Assembly (NCBI GenBank): GCA_018432925.1
Contig: JAHDSC010000054.1
Location: 1-45,331, forward strand
DNA length: 45,331 nucleotides
DNA from: Desulfobacterales bacterium
GTDB lineage: Bacteria; Desulfobacterota; Desulfobacteria; Desulfobacterales; JAHDSC01
Direction: 5' to 3'
Shown here: piece after piece, positions 2,184 to 29,512 of the stretch
Layout: the number at the start of each line of letters is the position of its first letter
Numbering within the stretch: position 1 is the first letter of the stretch
The notes under the pieces: generated by a model
Databases searched by the model: none
What the model saw: the letters and a program-made list of their open reading frames with translations, nothing else
Told to the model about the DNA's origin: nothing
Translations under genes and position numbers: made by a program

Positions 2184-2203
2184 TATAGGGGACGTCCATT
2201 GGA

Positions 2204-3220
2204 TTATTGATCGAATTTCTCAAACAGGGATAATCCTATCGCTTGGGCGATTTTCTGTCCTCTTTTTGCCGATTGGCTGATGGTTGGCTGGGATAATTTC
2301 AACTCTTTGGACAGCTCGATGGTTGTCATCCCCAGCTCTCGCGTTGCCCAATAACACAGCAAGCTGCGCGCTTTTACATTTTTGGGGTACTTACCCGGTG
2401 TCAAGATTTCCTGCGGTTCAAGTCCAGACAGCTTTGTCACCCGTTTCACCAACCATTTGAAATCGCAGCCATCGGCTTCCAGGCGGTATTTTCGTTCCAG
2501 ATCCTCCCGGGCCTCTTTCAATACCGATTCAACAAACTGGCCGTCTCCTAGAATGCGTTCATCCCCTTTAATCCGCTCAAACCCCTTGCGCAAGGCTTTC
2601 ACCGCAGACCATCCGCCAACGCAACGCACAAGGCCCCCGCCCACCAAGTATGGTTTTCGACCTTCACAGATTCCCTTTGCCACATATTCGCGGTAATGCC
2701 GACGAGCAGACAAGCTCTTATTGGAATAAAACCTCAGAATATAATCCGTATCCTGCCCCGGTTGCTTGCTTTTTCCCATCATCACACTGTGACCCCCATA
2801 AGCATAGGTGTCCAAAGCCTTCAAATCCTCCACAAGCCTGGCGCGCAATGGATTCAAGTGGATGTAGCGCACCAGCTCCAACAAGTATAAATCCTCCTGA
2901 CACAAAATGGATTTGTAGCGATTCTGGAAGAGTTGACCATGTCGGCGGTGGCGATGATTGAAGCTGACGGCATATCCGGTCAATAGCCGCCGCATCACCG
3001 TAGCGATTGGCGTAGTGCCGGTTTTTAGCAACAGATGAGCGTGATTCGGGATCAAGGCCCACGCAAAACAGGGCGTGCCGGTTTCAATCAAGACGGCTCC
3101 CAGCCGTTCCAGAAAGTTGTTCCTGTCTTCATCGTCATAGAATATCTTTCGACGTTCAATGCCCCTGACGATAATATGATGCAGCGCTCCAGGAGCGTCT
3201 ATGCGGGCTTTCCGTGGCAT
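2204..3220 (-). CDS. rayT: REP-associated tyrosine transposase (RayT, Y1/HUH family) with C-terminal helix-turn-helix
   Basis: This 338-aa protein has the single-strand HUH transposase fold. IIVRGIERRKIF lies near the N-terminus, the metal-binding H60-A-H62 in LIPNHAHLL, and the presumed nucleophile Tyr119 in RYIHLNPLRARLV. These motifs define the TnpA-REP (RayT) branch of Y1 transposases, which cut and join hairpin-containing DNA. Residues after about 180 are additional to the core (about 150-180 aa). The C-terminus (about residues 270-330) resembles a DnaA-like or MerR-like helix-turn-helix, with GMTTIELSKELKLSQPTISQ, likely a DNA-binding extension. The gene appears intact. It is flanked by inverted GACGTCCCCTA ends and tandem repeats that are probable recognition sites. 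Confidence 0.92.
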   Translation of the reverse strand: MPRKARIDAPGALHHIIVRGIERRKIFYDDEDRNNFLERLGAVLIETGTPCFAWALIPNHAHLLLKTGTTPIATVMRRLLTGYAVSFNHRHRRHGQLFQNRYKSILCQEDLYLLELVRYIHLNPLRARLVEDLKALDTYAYGGHSVMMGKSKQPGQDTDYILRFYSNKSLSARRHYREYVAKGICEGRKPYLVGGGLVRCVGGWSAVKALRKGFERIKGDERILGDGQFVESVLKEAREDLERKYRLEADGCDFKWLVKRVTKLSGLEPQEILTPGKYPKNVKARSLLCYWATRELGMTTIELSKELKLSQPTISQSAKRGQKIAQAIGLSLFEKFDQ

Positions 3221-3227
3221 GTTTACC

Positions 3228-3349
3228 GTATAGCATAAAACGATACGTTGGCAAACGTATAATGCAATAGACGTCCCCTAAATCCCACGTATAGCACGAA
3301 ACGATACGGTGGCAAACATATAATACAATAGACGTCCCCTAAATCCCAC
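3228..3349. repeat. Two 61-bp tandem repeats upstream of rayT
   Basis: Copies at 3228-3288 and 3289-3349 share TATAGCA, AAACGATACG, TGGCAAAC, CAATAGACGTCCCCTAAATC with only a few substitutions. Copy 1 forms a perfect 7-bp hairpin (3243-3249 with 3254-3260); in copy 2 the hairpin has decayed. They are likely REP-type substrates or promoter-proximal binding sites of the adjacent transposase. Confidence 0.85.
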
Positions 3350-3389: not shown

Positions 3390-4181
3390 TTAATCATACA
3401 GTTCCCAAATTACCAGAAGCAATAAATTCGGGTTGGGCACTTCCGATTCGATGGCGATATCGGCGCCCCTGATGAGTTCGCTCTTGCCGCAACCGGAAGC
3501 GATGCAGCTGCAAATTTTTTTCGTTGCGCGAATCTGGTACGAAATCGCATCGTAAAATATCCGCATGTCATTTAGGACGGCCGAAAGTTCGCTGTGCGAT
3601 TTTGCATAAAAGGAAAAAGGGGAAATTCTTTCAAGCAGTGTTTCGAGGTTTCGGATCAGTTTCCGGGTATGGTTGGAGGTTATTTCCAGCTTCCGAAAGT
3701 CAGGACCGCAAAGGAGCAACTTCAGCCCCCCGATGATTTCGCTCTTGCTTTTTTTAGATCCTTCCTCGGAATAATACAGATCGCTCTTACGGTGCCCGGA
3801 AGCGATATGTTCACAAATCTTTTTGGTGGCACGCACCTGATCTTCAACCGCCCGTAAAAACAGGATCGTTTCATAGGCGGCTCCTTCCGATAACTCCCCG
3901 ATGCCGGCGGGTACGCCATGATAAGCGGCTTTTTCCGACAATGTACGGATGGCCAGGAGGATTTCTTCTCCCCTGCTGTAAATTCCGTATAACGTATCGA
4001 GATCGCCCCCGCAGAATTTTAATTTCAGCCTGCGTATTTTTTCGCTTTTACTTTCGCCCGGTTCGGGAGTGGAATCATAATTCTCCATCCCGTTTTCAGC
4101 TTTACCTTCGACGGGAATGCTCAAGGCAAAAAAAATTGTTGCCAGAATCAACCTGATCATACCAACCCATTGGTTTTTCAT
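3390..4181 (-). CDS. Exported protein with two 101-residue internal repeats, function unknown
   Basis: I do not recognise this 263-aa protein. The ATG at 4181 follows AGGAGAAGAAA. Residues 1-28 form a signal peptide (hydrophobic MIRLILATIFFALSIP, then a likely cleavage near EGKA), so it should be periplasmic or surface-exposed. The mature part is a tandem duplication: residues about 44-135 and 145-236 align with a constant offset of 101 and no gaps. Shared landmarks are SKSE-I--LKL--CG-D (Cys57/Cys158), QVRATKKIC / QIRATKKIC (Cys123/Cys224), and IASG--KSDL / IASG--KSEL. Two cysteines per unit are conserved, suggesting a disulfide within each unit; further cysteines at 226 and 231 occur only in repeat 2. 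Both units look helical. The gene is monocistronic between the RayT element and a MITE. Confidence 0.75.
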   Translation of the reverse strand: MKNQWVGMIRLILATIFFALSIPVEGKAENGMENYDSTPEPGESKSEKIRRLKLKFCGGDLDTLYGIYSRGEEILLAIRTLSEKAAYHGVPAGIGELSEGAAYETILFLRAVEDQVRATKKICEHIASGHRKSDLYYSEEGSKKSKSEIIGGLKLLLCGPDFRKLEITSNHTRKLIRNLETLLERISPFSFYAKSHSELSAVLNDMRIFYDAISYQIRATKKICSCIASGCGKSELIRGADIAIESEVPNPNLLLLVIWELYD

Positions 4182-4403
4182 TTTCTTCTCCTGTCTTGGT
4201 CTTGAGGGTTTCCATCAACTCATTCCGCAACACCGGAAGCCGGAAAAACACGGTTGAAATTTCCTTCGGATCAATGACGAGATTTTTTAAGCCTTTTCAC
4301 CGAATGACATTTTCATTATAAACCGATCCTGCTGATTATCAATGGATATATGAGAGTCACATGATGAATGGAAGGGGTTTCCATACCTTCGATCCGGTTT
4401 TAG

Positions 4404-4545
4404 CAGGGTGTTGAAAAACTGCGCCTGAGGCCGCCATTCAGCGTTGCACGGCTCTCTCCAATGCTCACATATGCTGAATATGCTGCGCTTGTCGCTTCGC
4501 CGTGCGCCTTGCCTGACGGCCTGATTCTTGTTTTTCAACACCCTG
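4404..4545. repeat. MITE family A, copy 1
   Basis: This 142-bp element has perfect 15-bp terminal inverted repeats, CAGGGTGTTGAAAAA and TTTTTCAACACCCTG. It is flanked on both sides by TTAG, a 4-bp target-site duplication. It is in the opposite orientation to the copies at 11166 and 29370. The interior is GC-rich and carries no gene; the open frames across it are incidental. Confidence 0.9.
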
Positions 4546-4548
4546 TTA

Positions 4549-5329: not shown

Positions 5330-5791
5330 ATGAAAAAACCGTCGATTCTGATAATAGCCCTGGTAGCCTGTTTCTGCTTGTCCACATATGCGTTTGGAGA
5401 AAGCGCAACAAAAGAGGAATGCGAAGCAAAATGCAAGGAAGCCGCCCAGGTTGTTCTCGATAAGGGGGTTGACGCAGCCGTCGTAATGATCAATGACAAA
5501 AACGGTCCCTTTGTCTGGAAAGACACCTACGTGTGGTTAAACGATCTGGACGGCAACATGCTGGCTCATCCCATCAAGCCGGACATGATCGGAAAAAACT
5601 GGATGGAATTGAAAGATAAGGAAGGAAAACCGTTTTTTAAAGAGCTCATCGATATTGCCAAAAGCACGGGATCGGGATGGGTCAGTTACAAATGGCCCAA
5701 GCCGGGGGAAGAGGCATTATCTGAAAAGATCACTTATTGCTACCGGGTGCCGGGAACCAATCTGATGACATCCGCGGGTACTTACAAATAA
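5330..5791 (+). CDS. Periplasmic single-Cache-domain protein
   Basis: This 153-aa protein has an ATG at 5330 behind GGAGG and an N-terminal signal peptide ending near YAFG (residues 1-23). The rest is one Cache-like fold: a helical segment rich in ECEAKCKEAAQ, then DTYVWLNDLDGNMLAHP, GKNWMELKDKEGKPFF and GWVSYKWPKPGE. The pattern DLDG-MLAHP...G-W-YKWPKP is characteristic of single-Cache (sCache_2-like) ligand-binding modules. Here the domain is free-standing, with no transmembrane anchor, histidine kinase or chemotaxis domain attached. A soluble binding protein that presents a small organic acid or similar ligand to a membrane receptor is plausible but inferred. An intrinsic terminator follows directly, so it is probably monocistronic. 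Confidence 0.85.
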   Translation: MKKPSILIIALVACFCLSTYAFGESATKEECEAKCKEAAQVVLDKGVDAAVVMINDKNGPFVWKDTYVWLNDLDGNMLAHPIKPDMIGKNWMELKDKEGKPFFKELIDIAKSTGSGWVSYKWPKPGEEALSEKITYCYRVPGTNLMTSAGTYK

Positions 5792-6541: not shown

Positions 6542-7702
6542 ATGCGGCAAATCATCCCGATAAAAAAGGGCATAAAACGTCTTTGTCTTTTTCTGGCAGC
6601 GTCCCTGCTGTTTTCCTCACCCGCGCTTTCCAAAGATACGTTCAAGATTGGAGGCGTTTTTTCAGTAACCGGTCGGGCGTCATTTCTGGGGGATCCCGAA
6701 AAAAAGAGCATGGAGATGCTGGTCAACCAAATCAATGCGAAGGGCGGAATCGATGGGCGTCTCCTTGAGGCGGTTATCTATGACACCGAGGGAGATCCGC
6801 AGAAGACGGTAAATGCCGTCAGCAAGCTGATTAACAAGGACCAGGTGATCGCAATTATCGGCCCCAGCCTGACACCGACCACACTTGCGGTAGTTCCTTT
6901 CGCCGAGCGATCAAAAACTCTTCTGATCAGTTGCGCCGCGGGAATCCTGATCACCGAGCCGGTAAAACCATGGGTCTTCAAAACCGCTCAGAGCGATGCA
7001 CTGGCGGTCGCTTCGATATATCAGCATATGAAAGCCCAAGGCATCAAAAAGGCGGCCATCTTATCGGTTTCCGACGCCTTTGGTGAAAGTGGGAAACAGC
7101 AGCTGGAAAAGCAGGCCGACGCATATGGAATCACCGTAATCCGGTCGGAAACTTTCGGAGCGGGGGATACGGACATGACTCCGCAGTTGACCAAAATACG
7201 GAAAGAAAATCCGGAGGCAATTATCTGCTGGGGAACAAATCCCGGGCCTGCGGTGGTTGCTAAAAATGTGAAGCAACTGGGATTGCAAATTCCCCTTTAT
7301 CAGAGCCATGGGGTCGCTTCGCCCAAATTTATCGAGCTGGCCAGCGACGCGGCGGAAGGAATTTATCTGCCGACCGGAAAAATCCTGGTGGCGGACTTGC
7401 TGCCGGATAACGATCCGCAGAAACCGGTTCTGCAGAATTATATCAAAGAGTTTGAAAGCCGGTACAACATGCCGGTTTCCGGCTTCGGAGGTTATGCGTA
7501 CGATGCGGTCCGCATGCTTGCAGAAGCGTTGAAAGGTTCCAACGGCGACAAAGAAAAAGTACGTGCGGCGCTCGAAGAGATGAAGGGTTTTGTCGGTGTA
7601 AGCGGTGTCTTCAGCTTTTCGAAAACGGAACACAACGGTCTGAGCCCGGATGCTTTTGTCATGGTTCAAATCCGAAACAACACCTGGGAACTGATCCGAT
7701 AA
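6542..7702 (+). CDS. livK: Branched-chain amino acid-type ABC transporter, periplasmic binding protein
   Basis: This 386-aa periplasmic binding protein of the type I (Leu/Ile/Val-binding) fold starts at the ATG at 6542 behind GGAAGGAAAA. The signal peptide covers about residues 1-30 (LCLFLAASLLFSSPALS). The mature start FKIGGVFSVTGRASFLGDP, the segment VIAIIGPSLTPTTLAV and the C-terminal GYAYDAVRMLAEAL are typical of the family. It captures the ligand and hands it to the LivH/LivM channel. Ligands in this family range from leucine to aromatic acids, amides and urea, and the pocket residues do not allow a choice here. It is the first gene of a five-gene operon; 46 bp separate it from the first permease. 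A candidate RNA leader with tandem terminators lies upstream, so expression may depend on antitermination or on a promoter between 6265 and 6520. Confidence 0.92.
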   Translation: MRQIIPIKKGIKRLCLFLAASLLFSSPALSKDTFKIGGVFSVTGRASFLGDPEKKSMEMLVNQINAKGGIDGRLLEAVIYDTEGDPQKTVNAVSKLINKDQVIAIIGPSLTPTTLAVVPFAERSKTLLISCAAGILITEPVKPWVFKTAQSDALAVASIYQHMKAQGIKKAAILSVSDAFGESGKQQLEKQADAYGITVIRSETFGAGDTDMTPQLTKIRKENPEAIICWGTNPGPAVVAKNVKQLGLQIPLYQSHGVASPKFIELASDAAEGIYLPTGKILVADLLPDNDPQKPVLQNYIKEFESRYNMPVSGFGGYAYDAVRMLAEALKGSNGDKEKVRAALEEMKGFVGVSGVFSFSKTEHNGLSPDAFVMVQIRNNTWELIR

Positions 7703-7748
7703 GCAGGAGCATCTTTCCGATAAATGTCATAGAGGCTTTCAGCACATC

Positions 7749-8624
7749 ATGCAGGAAATTCTTCAGTATCTTTTTTCAGGAATCACAAACGGAGCCATTT
7801 ACGCGGTGATCGCCGTTGGCTTTTCCATGCTTTACAATTCCACGGAGCTGATCAATTTCGCTCATGGTGAATTTGTCATGCTGGGAGGGCTGGGAATCGT
7901 CACCTTATGGGGCGGCTCTCTCCTCCCTTTACCCGCGGCCTTCGTTCTGACGGTGATCGGAGTTGCATTTGTAGGATTCCTTCTCGAGCGGGTGGCCCTC
8001 CGGAAGGTTTCCAGATCCCAGCCGATCGTTCTGGTGATCATCACGATAGGGGCTTCTATTTTTTTGCGTGGAATCGGGATGCTGATTTGGGGAAAAGATG
8101 CGCATGCCATTCCTTCTTTCACCAAACTTTCGCCGATGGATGTGTTCGGGGCCAAATTGATGCCCCAGAGCATATTGATTCTCGCGATCGTCCTGCTTGT
8201 AGTGGTCGGCCTCCATCTTTTTTATCGAAAAACCCTTACCGGCAAGGCAATGCAGGCTTGCGCCATCAACGAAAAAGCGGCCTGGTTGTCCGGTATCCCA
8301 TCCGACCAAATGGTCCTGCTCGCTTTTTTCCTGAGTGCGGGTATCGGAGCCATCGCGGGCATCATCATCGCACCCATCACCATGTGCGGTTACGACATGG
8401 GGATTTTGCTCGGCTTGAAAGGATTCTGTGCGGCGATGCTCGGAGGACTGGGCAGTTTATGGGGATCTCTGGTCGGTGGATTACTGCTCGGAATATCCGA
8501 ATCATTAGGTGTGGGATACGTTTCATCCAGCCTGAAGGACGCCATCGCCTTTCTGGTTCTTCTGCTCATTCTTTATATCCGCCCAACCGGTATCCTGGGG
8601 ATAAAGGAGGCAAAACGGTTTTAA
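7749..8624 (+). CDS. livH: ABC transporter permease LivH
   Basis: This 291-aa inner-membrane permease begins MQEILQYLFSGITNGAIYAV and has about eight hydrophobic segments. The FAHGEFVMLGG motif after the second segment and the late GLKGFCAAMLGGLGSLWGSLVGGLLLG segment (the cytoplasmic loop that docks on the ATPase) are diagnostic of LivH. With LivM it forms the translocation channel. It follows the binding protein by 46 bp and precedes livM by 19 bp, so all are co-transcribed. Length and motifs are complete. Confidence 0.93.
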   Translation: MQEILQYLFSGITNGAIYAVIAVGFSMLYNSTELINFAHGEFVMLGGLGIVTLWGGSLLPLPAAFVLTVIGVAFVGFLLERVALRKVSRSQPIVLVIITIGASIFLRGIGMLIWGKDAHAIPSFTKLSPMDVFGAKLMPQSILILAIVLLVVVGLHLFYRKTLTGKAMQACAINEKAAWLSGIPSDQMVLLAFFLSAGIGAIAGIIIAPITMCGYDMGILLGLKGFCAAMLGGLGSLWGSLVGGLLLGISESLGVGYVSSSLKDAIAFLVLLLILYIRPTGILGIKEAKRF

Positions 8625-8643
8625 TGAAAGCCTTAATCAGACA

Positions 8644-9600
8644 ATGAAACCGGAATGTTTTAAAAACAGACTCTATTACGGAATTTTTCTTCCGGTCATC
8701 GCCGTTTCTGGGTTTGTGATCGACAGCCCGTATTATCTTCAGGTACTGACCTTTATCGGAATCAACACCCTCCTTACGATCGGATTGAACATGCTGATGG
8801 GGTATGCAGGTCAGATATCCCTCGGCCATGCCGCGTTCTACGGCATCGGTGCTTATACAACCACGATTCTCACCGTTCATTTTGATTTTTCTCCATGGGC
8901 AGCCCTTCCCTGCACCTTGGTGGTGACAGGTATGGTGGCCTTTCTGGTCGGGCTCCCGATGTTAAAACTGACCGGTTATTACCTGGGCATGGGAACCCTT
9001 GGATTCGGCATGATCGTTTATGTTCTCTTCCGGGAGTGGAGTCATGTTACCGGCGGATCATCCGGTATGGTCGGTATACCGTCTCTTTCTTTGGGACCGG
9101 TTTCATTTTCCGACAGCCGCAATTATTTTTATCTGGTCTGGATGATCGTTCTTGTATGCATCGTGTTTTGTCAGCGCCTCATTCAATCGCGGGTTGGAAG
9201 GGCGCTTCGCTCGATCTCCGACAGCGAGAATGCGGCAAAAGCCCTGGGCGTCGATACGAAAGATCTCAAACTGAAGATCTTCATCTTAAGTGCGCTGTTC
9301 GCCGCCATGGCCGGGTTTCTATACGCCCATCTCGTCACTTTCATCAGTCCGGGCTCTTTTGATTTCATGGTTTCGATCCGAATGGTAACAATGGTGGTGA
9401 TCGGCGGCATGGCCAGCATCTGGGGGGCATTGCTGGGCGCATCGGTTCTGACGTTGCTTCCCGAGTGTCTTCACGCCTTTGCGGACTTTGAAATGGTGGT
9501 ATACGGACTGATCCTGATGCTGATCATGATTTTTATGCCCCGGGGACTGACCCGCGGCCTGATGGATATCTATGAGCGCTCCGTGTCTAAACAGATTTGA
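8644..9600 (+). CDS. livM: ABC transporter permease LivM
   Basis: This 318-aa inner-membrane protein has the LivM landmarks: NMLMGYAGQISLGHAAFYGIGAYT (about residues 50-73), a central GSSGMVGIPSLSLG segment, and the ATPase-contact loop GRALRSISDSENAAKALGVDTK (about 187-210). The last third, with GGMASIWGALLGASVLTLLPE, closes the channel. It partners LivH. Its 3' end overlaps the start of livG by 29 bp, implying translational coupling. It is normal in length. Confidence 0.93.
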   Translation: MKPECFKNRLYYGIFLPVIAVSGFVIDSPYYLQVLTFIGINTLLTIGLNMLMGYAGQISLGHAAFYGIGAYTTTILTVHFDFSPWAALPCTLVVTGMVAFLVGLPMLKLTGYYLGMGTLGFGMIVYVLFREWSHVTGGSSGMVGIPSLSLGPVSFSDSRNYFYLVWMIVLVCIVFCQRLIQSRVGRALRSISDSENAAKALGVDTKDLKLKIFILSALFAAMAGFLYAHLVTFISPGSFDFMVSIRMVTMVVIGGMASIWGALLGASVLTLLPECLHAFADFEMVVYGLILMLIMIFMPRGLTRGLMDIYERSVSKQI

Positions 9601-10387
9601 GAAGCCGCCGCTGTTGCGGGCGGATTCCATATCCAAAGCCTTCGGCGGTGTCCAGGCGTTGCTGAACGTCTCTTTTGAGGTCAGCGAGGGAACGATCCTG
9701 GGAATCATCGGTCCGAACGGCGCCGGGAAAACAACGCTTTTCAACGTGATCACCAGCGCGTATCCCCCTGATTCGGGACAGCTTTTTCTGGATCGCAAAA
9801 AAATTCAGAACAGAAAGGTACATGAACTCGTTCGCCTCGGTATTGCCAGGACCTTCCAGAATGTCGAGCTGTTTGAAAATATGACGGCGCTGGAAAATGT
9901 GATGGTCGGCCAGTATACCCAAACCCGATGCGGAATTTTTGCAGCCGCGGCCCGTCTGCCGTGGGCCGTAGCGGAAGAAAAGCAGGCGCGGGAAGAAGCC
10001 ATGGCTCTTCTTTCTTTTGTGGGAATTGCGCAATATGCGGAAAACCGAAGCGGGAATCTGCCGTTCGGATGGCAACGGCTCCTGGAAATCGCCCGTGCTT
10101 TGGCCGCAAAACCCAGGCTGCTGCTTCTGGATGAACCGGCGGCCGGGTTAAACGCCGTTGAAACACGCCGATTGGGAAACCTGATCGAAAGAATCCGGCA
10201 TCAGGGCGTCACTATTTTGTTGGTTGAACACGATATGAACCTTACCATGACGATTTGCGACCGGATTATCGTTCTGAACTACGGGAAAATACTCGCCCAT
10301 GGCACACCGGAGGAGATTCAATCGAATCCGGCCGTAATGGCCGCATACCTGGGAACATCCGAGGTAAGCCCCTTAATTTATGATTAG
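9572..10387 (+). CDS. livG: ABC transporter ATP-binding protein LivG
   Basis: This 271-aa cytoplasmic ATPase has Walker A GPNGAGKT (residues 47-54), a Q-loop near GIARTFQNVELFENMT, Walker B LLLLDEPAAGLN, and the H-loop in LVEHDMNLTM. The signature motif is unusual: where LivG proteins normally have LSYGQQR, this one has LPFGWQRLLEIARAL, so the central Y-G-Q is F-G-W. It probably still works because the surrounding ATPase motifs are intact. The gene starts inside livM (29-bp overlap) and overlaps the upstream alternative start of livF. It energises import together with LivF. Confidence 0.93.
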   Translation: MSAPCLNRFEKPPLLRADSISKAFGGVQALLNVSFEVSEGTILGIIGPNGAGKTTLFNVITSAYPPDSGQLFLDRKKIQNRKVHELVRLGIARTFQNVELFENMTALENVMVGQYTQTRCGIFAAAARLPWAVAEEKQAREEAMALLSFVGIAQYAENRSGNLPFGWQRLLEIARALAAKPRLLLLDEPAAGLNAVETRRLGNLIERIRHQGVTILLVEHDMNLTMTICDRIIVLNYGKILAHGTPEEIQSNPAVMAAYLGTSEVSPLIYD

Positions 10388-10397
10388 AAGGCAATGT

Positions 10398-11165
10398 ATG
10401 CTGAATATCCAAAATTTAAAGTGTTATCATGGTCGAATCCAGGCAATTAAGGGAGTCGATCTGTTTATTGGAAAAGGTGAACTGGTTACGCTGGTCGGCG
10501 CCAATGGCTCCGGGAAAAGCACGTTGGTCCAGGCGGTCTGTGGATTACTCAATGAATGGAAAGGGGAAATCCGCTTCGAGAATGAACTGCTTGCCGGTCT
10601 GAAGCCTTCCTCAATCGTCAAACGCGGGATCAGCATGGTGCCGGAAGGGAGAATGATTTTTTCCACCTTGAGCGTTTTGGACAACCTGAAACTCGGCGCT
10701 TACACCCGGTACCGGAAAAAAAGAATGGCCGAAGCTGTCGAAAATGATCTTCAGATGGTTTTGGACCTATTCCCCGTACTTAAGGATCGGGCATCTCAAC
10801 CCGCGGGCACCCTTTCCGGCGGCGAGCAGCAAATGCTTGCCATTGGTCGGGCTCTGATGGCGCGTCCCAAACTGCTTGTGCTGGATGAACCATCCGTGGG
10901 ACTGGCACCGCTACTGGTTCGAAAGATATTATCCACCCTTGAACAGCTCCGAAATCAAGGACTGACAATTCTTCTGATCGAACAGAACGCTCACGCCGCC
11001 CTTGAAATCGCCGATCGCGGATATGTAATCGAAACCGGCCGTGTGGTTCTGGAAGGTGCCGCATCCGATCTGCTCAACGACGAGGAGTTGAAGAAAGTCT
11101 ATCTGGGTAAGGATTACTGCGAGTCATACCCGAAGAATTTCATCCCGCTCCGATGCTGCAATTAA
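10398..11165 (+). CDS. livF: ABC transporter ATP-binding protein LivF
   Basis: This is the second ATPase of the importer, about 255 aa from the ATG at 10398. That ATG is preferred because AGAAGG lies 6 bp upstream; another in-frame ATG at 10380 overlaps the livG stop. Motifs: Walker A GANGSGKS, signature TLSGGEQQMLAIGRAL, Walker B LLVLDEPSVGL, and LLIEQNAHAAL with its switch region. The typical LivF ending YLG is followed by about 17 extra residues rich in Cys and Pro. The TAA stop lies within the TTAA target duplication of the MITE that begins at 11166. Because the duplication preserves TTAA, the insertion did not alter the reading frame. Confidence 0.93.
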   Translation: MLNIQNLKCYHGRIQAIKGVDLFIGKGELVTLVGANGSGKSTLVQAVCGLLNEWKGEIRFENELLAGLKPSSIVKRGISMVPEGRMIFSTLSVLDNLKLGAYTRYRKKRMAEAVENDLQMVLDLFPVLKDRASQPAGTLSGGEQQMLAIGRALMARPKLLVLDEPSVGLAPLLVRKILSTLEQLRNQGLTILLIEQNAHAALEIADRGYVIETGRVVLEGAASDLLNDEELKKVYLGKDYCESYPKNFIPLRCCN

Positions 11166-29369: not shown

Positions 29370-29512
29370 CAGGGTGTTGAAAAACAAGAATCAGGCCGTC
29401 AGGCAAAGCGCGCGGCGAAGCGACAAGCGCAGCATATTCAAGCATATGTGAGCATTGGAGAGAGCCGTGCAACGCTGAATGGCGACCTCAGGCGCAGTTT
29501 TTCAACAGCCTG
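29370..29512. repeat. MITE family A, copy 3
   Basis: This 143-bp copy starts CAGGGTGTTGAAAAA and ends TTTTTCAACAGCCTG (one mismatch), flanked by TTAG on both sides. It has the same orientation as the copy at 11166. It sits just after the octaheme cytochrome gene. Confidence 0.9.

Follow-up and report, generated by a model that had tools for sequence, protein, structure and literature searches.

A duplicated, exported helical protein of Desulfobacterales: a small family missing from the searched libraries and probably folding as a four-helix bundle

What kind of protein consists of two units of equal length joined without a gap, and what could it do outside the cytoplasm? This question is raised by an open reading frame of 263 aa with ATG start at positions 3390-4181 of the minus strand in the window, i.e. 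the whole stretch of 45,331 nucleotides of a Desulfobacterales bacterium that was analysed. An earlier note, made from the letters of this DNA, had described an exported protein of two 101-residue repeats belonging to no family known to its author. The features of the gene are given below, each with its basis.

3390-4181 (-): gene for the exported two-unit protein, 263 aa (reading frame, repeat, homologues, selection between homologues)
4188-4192 (-): putative ribosome-binding sequence AGGAG, 7-11 bases 5' of the ATG (upstream sequence)
4098-4181 (-): signal-peptide-like N-terminus, about residues 1-28 (sequence, end set by eye; low pLDDT there)
3753-4055 (-): unit 1, residues 43-143, with Cys57 and Cys123 and the modelled helices 45-87 and 94-127 (repeat, alignment, model)
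3462-3752 (-): unit 2, residues 144-240, with Cys158 and Cys224 and the modelled helices 146-157, 160-185 and 193-228 (repeat, alignment, model)
4011-4013 (-): codon of Cys57, position invariant in 8/8 units (unit alignment)
3813-3815 (-): codon of Cys123, position invariant in 8/8 units (unit alignment)
3708-3710 (-): codon of Cys158, position invariant in 8/8 units (unit alignment)
3510-3512 (-): codon of Cys224, position invariant in 8/8 units (unit alignment)
3393-3488 (-): C-terminal tail, residues 232-263, the most conserved part in the family (pairwise identities and family alignment)

To examine the internal repeat, the protein was compared with itself at every offset between 20 and 199. 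Only an offset of 101 yielded an ungapped BLOSUM62 self-score above 30 (114, residues 35-135 against 136-236). Residues 44-136 and 145-237 are identical at 33 of 93 positions without any gap. The gapped local alignment of the two halves scored 113, and none of 2000 shuffles exceeded 49 (mean 26.6, s.d. 4.7). The gapless repeat of the earlier note was thus confirmed, and the cysteines that it had placed in register (57/158 and 123/224) occupy positions invariant in all known units. The motifs RATKKIC and IASG..KS.L, which it had also named, are common to both units of the window protein, but they are not kept in the homologues. At the DNA level the units agree at only 132 of 279 positions, with the same codon at 16 of the 33 shared residues, and dS between them is about 2.4, so that synonymous sites are near saturation. 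Because of this low DNA identity and high dS, the duplication is regarded as old and not as an artefact of assembly. With 35% identity the two units resemble each other more than either resembles a unit of any other protein. This likeness may reflect slow change or gene conversion; the unit tree, with one of five inner branches well supported and branches that are too long, does not separate the two. A recent conversion is made less likely by the codons, which differ along the RATKKIC stretch.

Sequence libraries were searched, and membership was taken to require a score above the curated cut-off or, for families lacking a cut-off, a convincing E-value. With the whole protein no Pfam family was matched. 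For the eight units known from four proteins the best Pfam E-value was 0.0049, in one member only, so the profile check of single unit and full protein proposed in the earlier note gave no clear Pfam domain. The best NCBIfam match reached 14.8 bits against a cut-off of 115, the best PHROGs match had an E-value of 0.33, and PADLOC gave no match, in agreement with the statement that no known family is involved. A profile of the unit found 6egc_A (E 1.1e-4), 8a3k (E 6e-4) and 8qae (E 0.002) as best among PDB sequences. These are designed helical proteins; the match was read as helical composition and kinship was rejected. After the searches of Pfam, NCBIfam, PHROGs, PADLOC and PDB sequences a known domain was rejected as well. 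Search listings of the literature returned nothing on such a family.

Homologues were found in related genomes. Among 96 relatives, two significant ones were detected beside the window's own genome, G055 (E 7.3e-11, 23% identity to the window protein) and G079 (E 2.0e-6, 27% over the aligned part); 17 further genomes at E 0.09-0.66 were left out of the family. When a profile was run against 389 genomes from the order, one more homologue appeared in G101 (E 4e-74), a genome from the genus of G055. In the named-genome collection no match was obtained with the single sequence, and the profile found one locus, L031 (JAOZUU010000045.1, a Desulfobacterales MAG), encoding the same protein as G079. 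Overall, the three homologues are about 23-25% identical to the window protein, and all of them look exported and contain two units. No new member was found in 389 genomes of the class, 395 of the phylum and 388 relatives of G079, samples which overlap the first one heavily, nor in the families of G055 (2 genomes) and G079 (1 genome). Judged from these searches, the family is rare and patchy, with four known members in three lineages and 4 carriers among the 389 genomes drawn from the order. Single-unit homologues, for which the earlier note had suggested a search, were not found among 58 genomes. Seven of these matched the unit at E <= 0.1; the strong matches were both units of the window protein and both of the G055 protein, and the others lay at E 0.027-0.1.

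Several weak profile matches were dropped. Four frames of the order sample (E 0.0027-0.0079) do not carry the cysteine signature; by eye, two of them represent a single conserved protein that resembles a coiled coil and has a membrane segment, one adjoins a secretin-like gene and one is a very long frame. G475, G504 and G744 of the phylum sample (E 0.0018-0.0037) were dropped on score and on their frames of 587-930 residues. G283 recurred as a weak match in the order, class and G079-relative samples (E 0.0056-0.0096). Plasmids and phages gave no match to the window protein, and none of 54 pattern matches in viral contigs was confirmed; a mobile or viral origin was rejected on these results.

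The eight units share the signature S-x-S-x2-I-x2-L-x4-C-x65-C, corresponding to the six columns S2, S4, I7, L10, C15 and C81 of the unit alignment; nothing else is invariant. The alignment is free of gaps over at least its first 94 columns. The spacing C-x65-C, with the cysteines 66 positions apart, occurs in all eight units of the four proteins, and the unit starts are separated by 101, 101, 100 and 101 residues. Units from different lineages are just 15-25% identical, and pairings in the fixed register beat shuffles in all 28 pairs (Z 3.9 to 20.8). Export was likewise supported: a signal-peptide-like start, recognized by eye, is present in 4/4 proteins. All four also have a conserved tail ending with Tyr-Asp or Tyr-Asn. 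In the window protein the tail comprises a conserved Pro, then a hydrophobic stretch and the terminal Tyr-Asp. Each of the six protein pairs shows a higher identity in the tail than in either unit; for G055 and G101, 28 of 30 tail positions are identical, compared with 151 of 218 from residue 43 on.

The gene stands alone in the window. Its downstream neighbour, on the same strand, is the gene of an IS200-like (Y1) transposase at 2204-3220 (-). This Y1_Tnp gene lies between inverted GGGGACGTC-containing ends (2186-3348) and beside a 61-nt direct repeat at 3227-3348, the two copies of which are 92% alike. Upstream of the window gene, positions 4401-4548 are occupied by a MITE-like element, about 148 bp long and bordered by terminal inverted repeats of 19 nt. 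A second copy is situated at 29370-29510 (-). The 3.4-Mb genome contains at least 40 copies with 93-100% identity, several of them at contig ends; this count is a lower bound, because scoring covered 40 of the 80 candidates from the first look. Beyond the 148-bp element, on the opposite strand, follow an exported Cache-domain protein, free-standing and without receptor part (dCache_2/sCache_2, 5330-5791), and then an ABC transporter set of the branched-chain amino acid type (6542-11165).

The surroundings of the homologues differ. Directly upstream of the homologue, G055 and G101 encode a small exported protein (L037:6831-7259 (+) and L026:1033-1527 (-)), which has no Pfam family over its cut-off. 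When the 143-aa protein of G055 was searched in the 96 genomes, which did not include G101, it was found in G055 itself and in G019 (E 0.0097, 2 stops). Neither the window's genome nor G079 gave a match, and the protein was therefore rejected as a conserved partner. The homologue of G079 is followed directly by a C_GCAxxG_C_C putative redox-active protein (L038:1000-1614 (-)) and then by a FecR-domain protein. No neighbour gene is common to the three lineages; hence the gene context gives no function.

Rarity within the order and mobile elements on both flanks could suggest a fortuitous or decayed reading frame without function. Against this, the frame is intact and preceded by a ribosome-binding sequence, it has a signal-like start, and the unit architecture is kept across three lineages. 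Purine-rich sites similar to AGGAG precede the three other homologues, too. Furthermore, the pair G055/G101, the one pair close enough to be measured, is under purifying selection (dN/dS 0.37). A functionless frame is thereby extremely improbable in our opinion. As homologues exist in further genomes of its order, the sequence at 3390-4181 (-) is a real gene.

The fold was predicted with AlphaFold for the window protein and for the homologue L031, each as target once, with an input alignment of these two sequences only. For the window protein a mean pLDDT of 66.8 and a pTM of 0.64 were obtained, and its five models reach as low as 54.8. The predicted helices comprise residues 45-87, 94-127, 146-157, 160-185, 193-228, 233-244 and 251-262. 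The L031 model is better (pLDDT 74.6, pTM 0.72, and 75-94 in most helical blocks), with helices at 31-74, 78-112, 132-169, 176-214, 219-231 and 237-244. Both models agree in two helical hairpins, after which come two short helices. The averaged hydrophobicity showed a helical periodicity at 102 degrees for the second half of the unit (equalled by 7 of 2000 shuffles); in the first half, helical periodicity was not significant (equalled by 689 of 2000). According to these models the protein probably folds as a four-helix bundle of ordinary type that arose by duplication of a hairpin, with each unit probably making up one half of it. The small disulfide-stabilised helical domain proposed in the earlier note is therefore upheld for the duplication, the helices of both models and the paired cysteines with their probable disulfides, but not for the autonomy of the unit.

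The cysteines are placed nearly symmetrically about the predicted turns. In the window protein the midpoints of the pairs are residues 90 and 191, with turns at 88-93 and 186-192; in L031 they are 76 and 177, with turns at 75-77 and 170-175. Such a position is expected for a disulfide which clamps the hairpin. Considering model geometry and conservation together, the cysteine pair of each unit probably forms a disulfide. A DSBA-family protein encoded in the window's genome (45.2 bits, cut-off 25.6) makes disulfides possible; the same search matches 8 of 14 control genomes, and PF01323 also covers proteins other than disulfide oxidases.

Alternatively, the cysteine pairs of the exported protein could carry electrons or bind metal instead of being structural. 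The window protein has cysteines at 57, 123, 158, 224, 226 and 231, the last three forming an additional cluster C-x-C-x4-C, and the positions of the cysteines as well as the putative redox protein next to the G079 homologue (E 9e-26) would fit to such a role. However, the cluster and the redox neighbour each occur in just one of four members. The conserved cysteines lie 65 residues apart and form no CxxC-type motif, and a conserved set of His, Asp or Glu is missing in the family. A redox function is for this reason considered quite improbable.

Structural comparison of both models with the PDB by Foldseek, and of the window model with BFVD, revealed nothing at E <= 0.001. With VIA-align the best matches were designed four-helix bundles (Z 11.6 and 13.0 for the two models), and YtfE, PilJ, TorS and plant PMEI ranked below; for helical bundles a Z below about 13 may simply reflect their common arrangement, and the list of this tool is not exhaustive. 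The designed proteins, namely single-chain Rop (1yo7) and the reaction-centre maquettes 8d9o and 5vju, consist of two packed hairpins, as predicted for the window protein, and reach Z 11.6-13.0 at best over about 175 residues. Unlike the window protein they have no exported tail, there is no sequence relation, and any bundle may give a match of this level.

PilJ (7zjr) and TorS (3i9w, 3o1i) contain periplasmic helical sensor bundles (Z 9.4-10.7, which may be due to a shared arrangement only) that belong to membrane receptors. The window protein differs from them: it has no second membrane segment and no sequence match, its 263-aa frame stops after bundle and tail, and a signalling domain was not found by Pfam. 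A periplasmic bundle similar to PilJ and TorS could nevertheless sense or carry a ligand without own anchor or signalling part. A small molecule would sit between the helices, and a separate receptor would read the complex. PilJ and TorS are the best natural periplasmic bundles listed by VIA: the periplasmic region of PilJ was matched with Z 10.4 and 2.5 A over 126 residues (window protein) and Z 10.7 and 2.6 A over 124 (homologue), the TorS sensor with Z 9.4 and 10.4, respectively. But these values are under the yardstick of the tool, and YtfE, Dbl-homology domains, TTYH and designed proteins score alike. Conserved pocket residues are not present in the family, and the homologue neighbourhoods have no signalling gene in common within the stretches read. 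We consider a sensing or carrying function unlikely.

A further candidate is an exported inhibitor or immunity-type protein which binds directly to an enzyme or toxin and so blocks it. In plants, the inhibitors of pectin methylesterase and invertase are exported four-helix bundles with disulfides and act via this disulfide-stabilised bundle. The window protein is small and predicted to be an exported helical bundle pinned by cysteines, and the family is divergent and patchy. The plant inhibitors (1x8z, 1x90, 1x91, 2cj8, 1rj1) were matched at Z 7.4-9.5, with 8.4-9.5 for PMEI structures, a level which helical bundles may also reach by chance; they are plant proteins without a sequence match, and no Pfam profile of theirs matched the window protein or its units. 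PADLOC reported nothing, and no toxin or enzyme gene is kept alongside between the lineages. With this evidence an inhibitor has a small chance of being correct. Specific support exists for none of the three functions, sensor, inhibitor or redox protein.

Apart from the cysteines no conserved residues of catalytic or metal type occur in the family; a binding or adaptor module is for this reason the most likely role. We favour, at about even confidence, an exported four-helix bundle of two disulfide-pinned hairpins that acts as a binding or adaptor protein and docks with its tail on a partner. The protein would be exported to the periplasm or the surface. Within a unit, two long helices joined by a turn would place the N- and C-terminal cysteines opposite each other at the hairpin base, and there they would probably be linked by a disulfide. 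The two hairpins would pack into one up-and-down bundle, and two short helices would form the C-terminus with its conserved hydrophobic end. The bundle would serve as scaffold of a stable, stoichiometric module and the tail as likely docking site, a role which its conservation suggests. A more far-reaching picture, an unnamed Desulfobacterales family in which disulfide-clamped hairpins, with a fixed period of 100-101 residues in spite of 15-25% identity, build a rigid bundle that presents the docking tail to an envelope partner, is put forward tentatively, as possible rather than probable.

In general, the locus represents a small family that is missing from the searched libraries and of a familiar kind, probably a helical bundle. 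The fold is apparently common, which limits the surprise. The family is now defined by a searchable signature and a clean architecture leading from duplication to bundle. If the tail does dock, it would offer a way to approach a yet uncharacterised partner in the envelope of Desulfobacterales.
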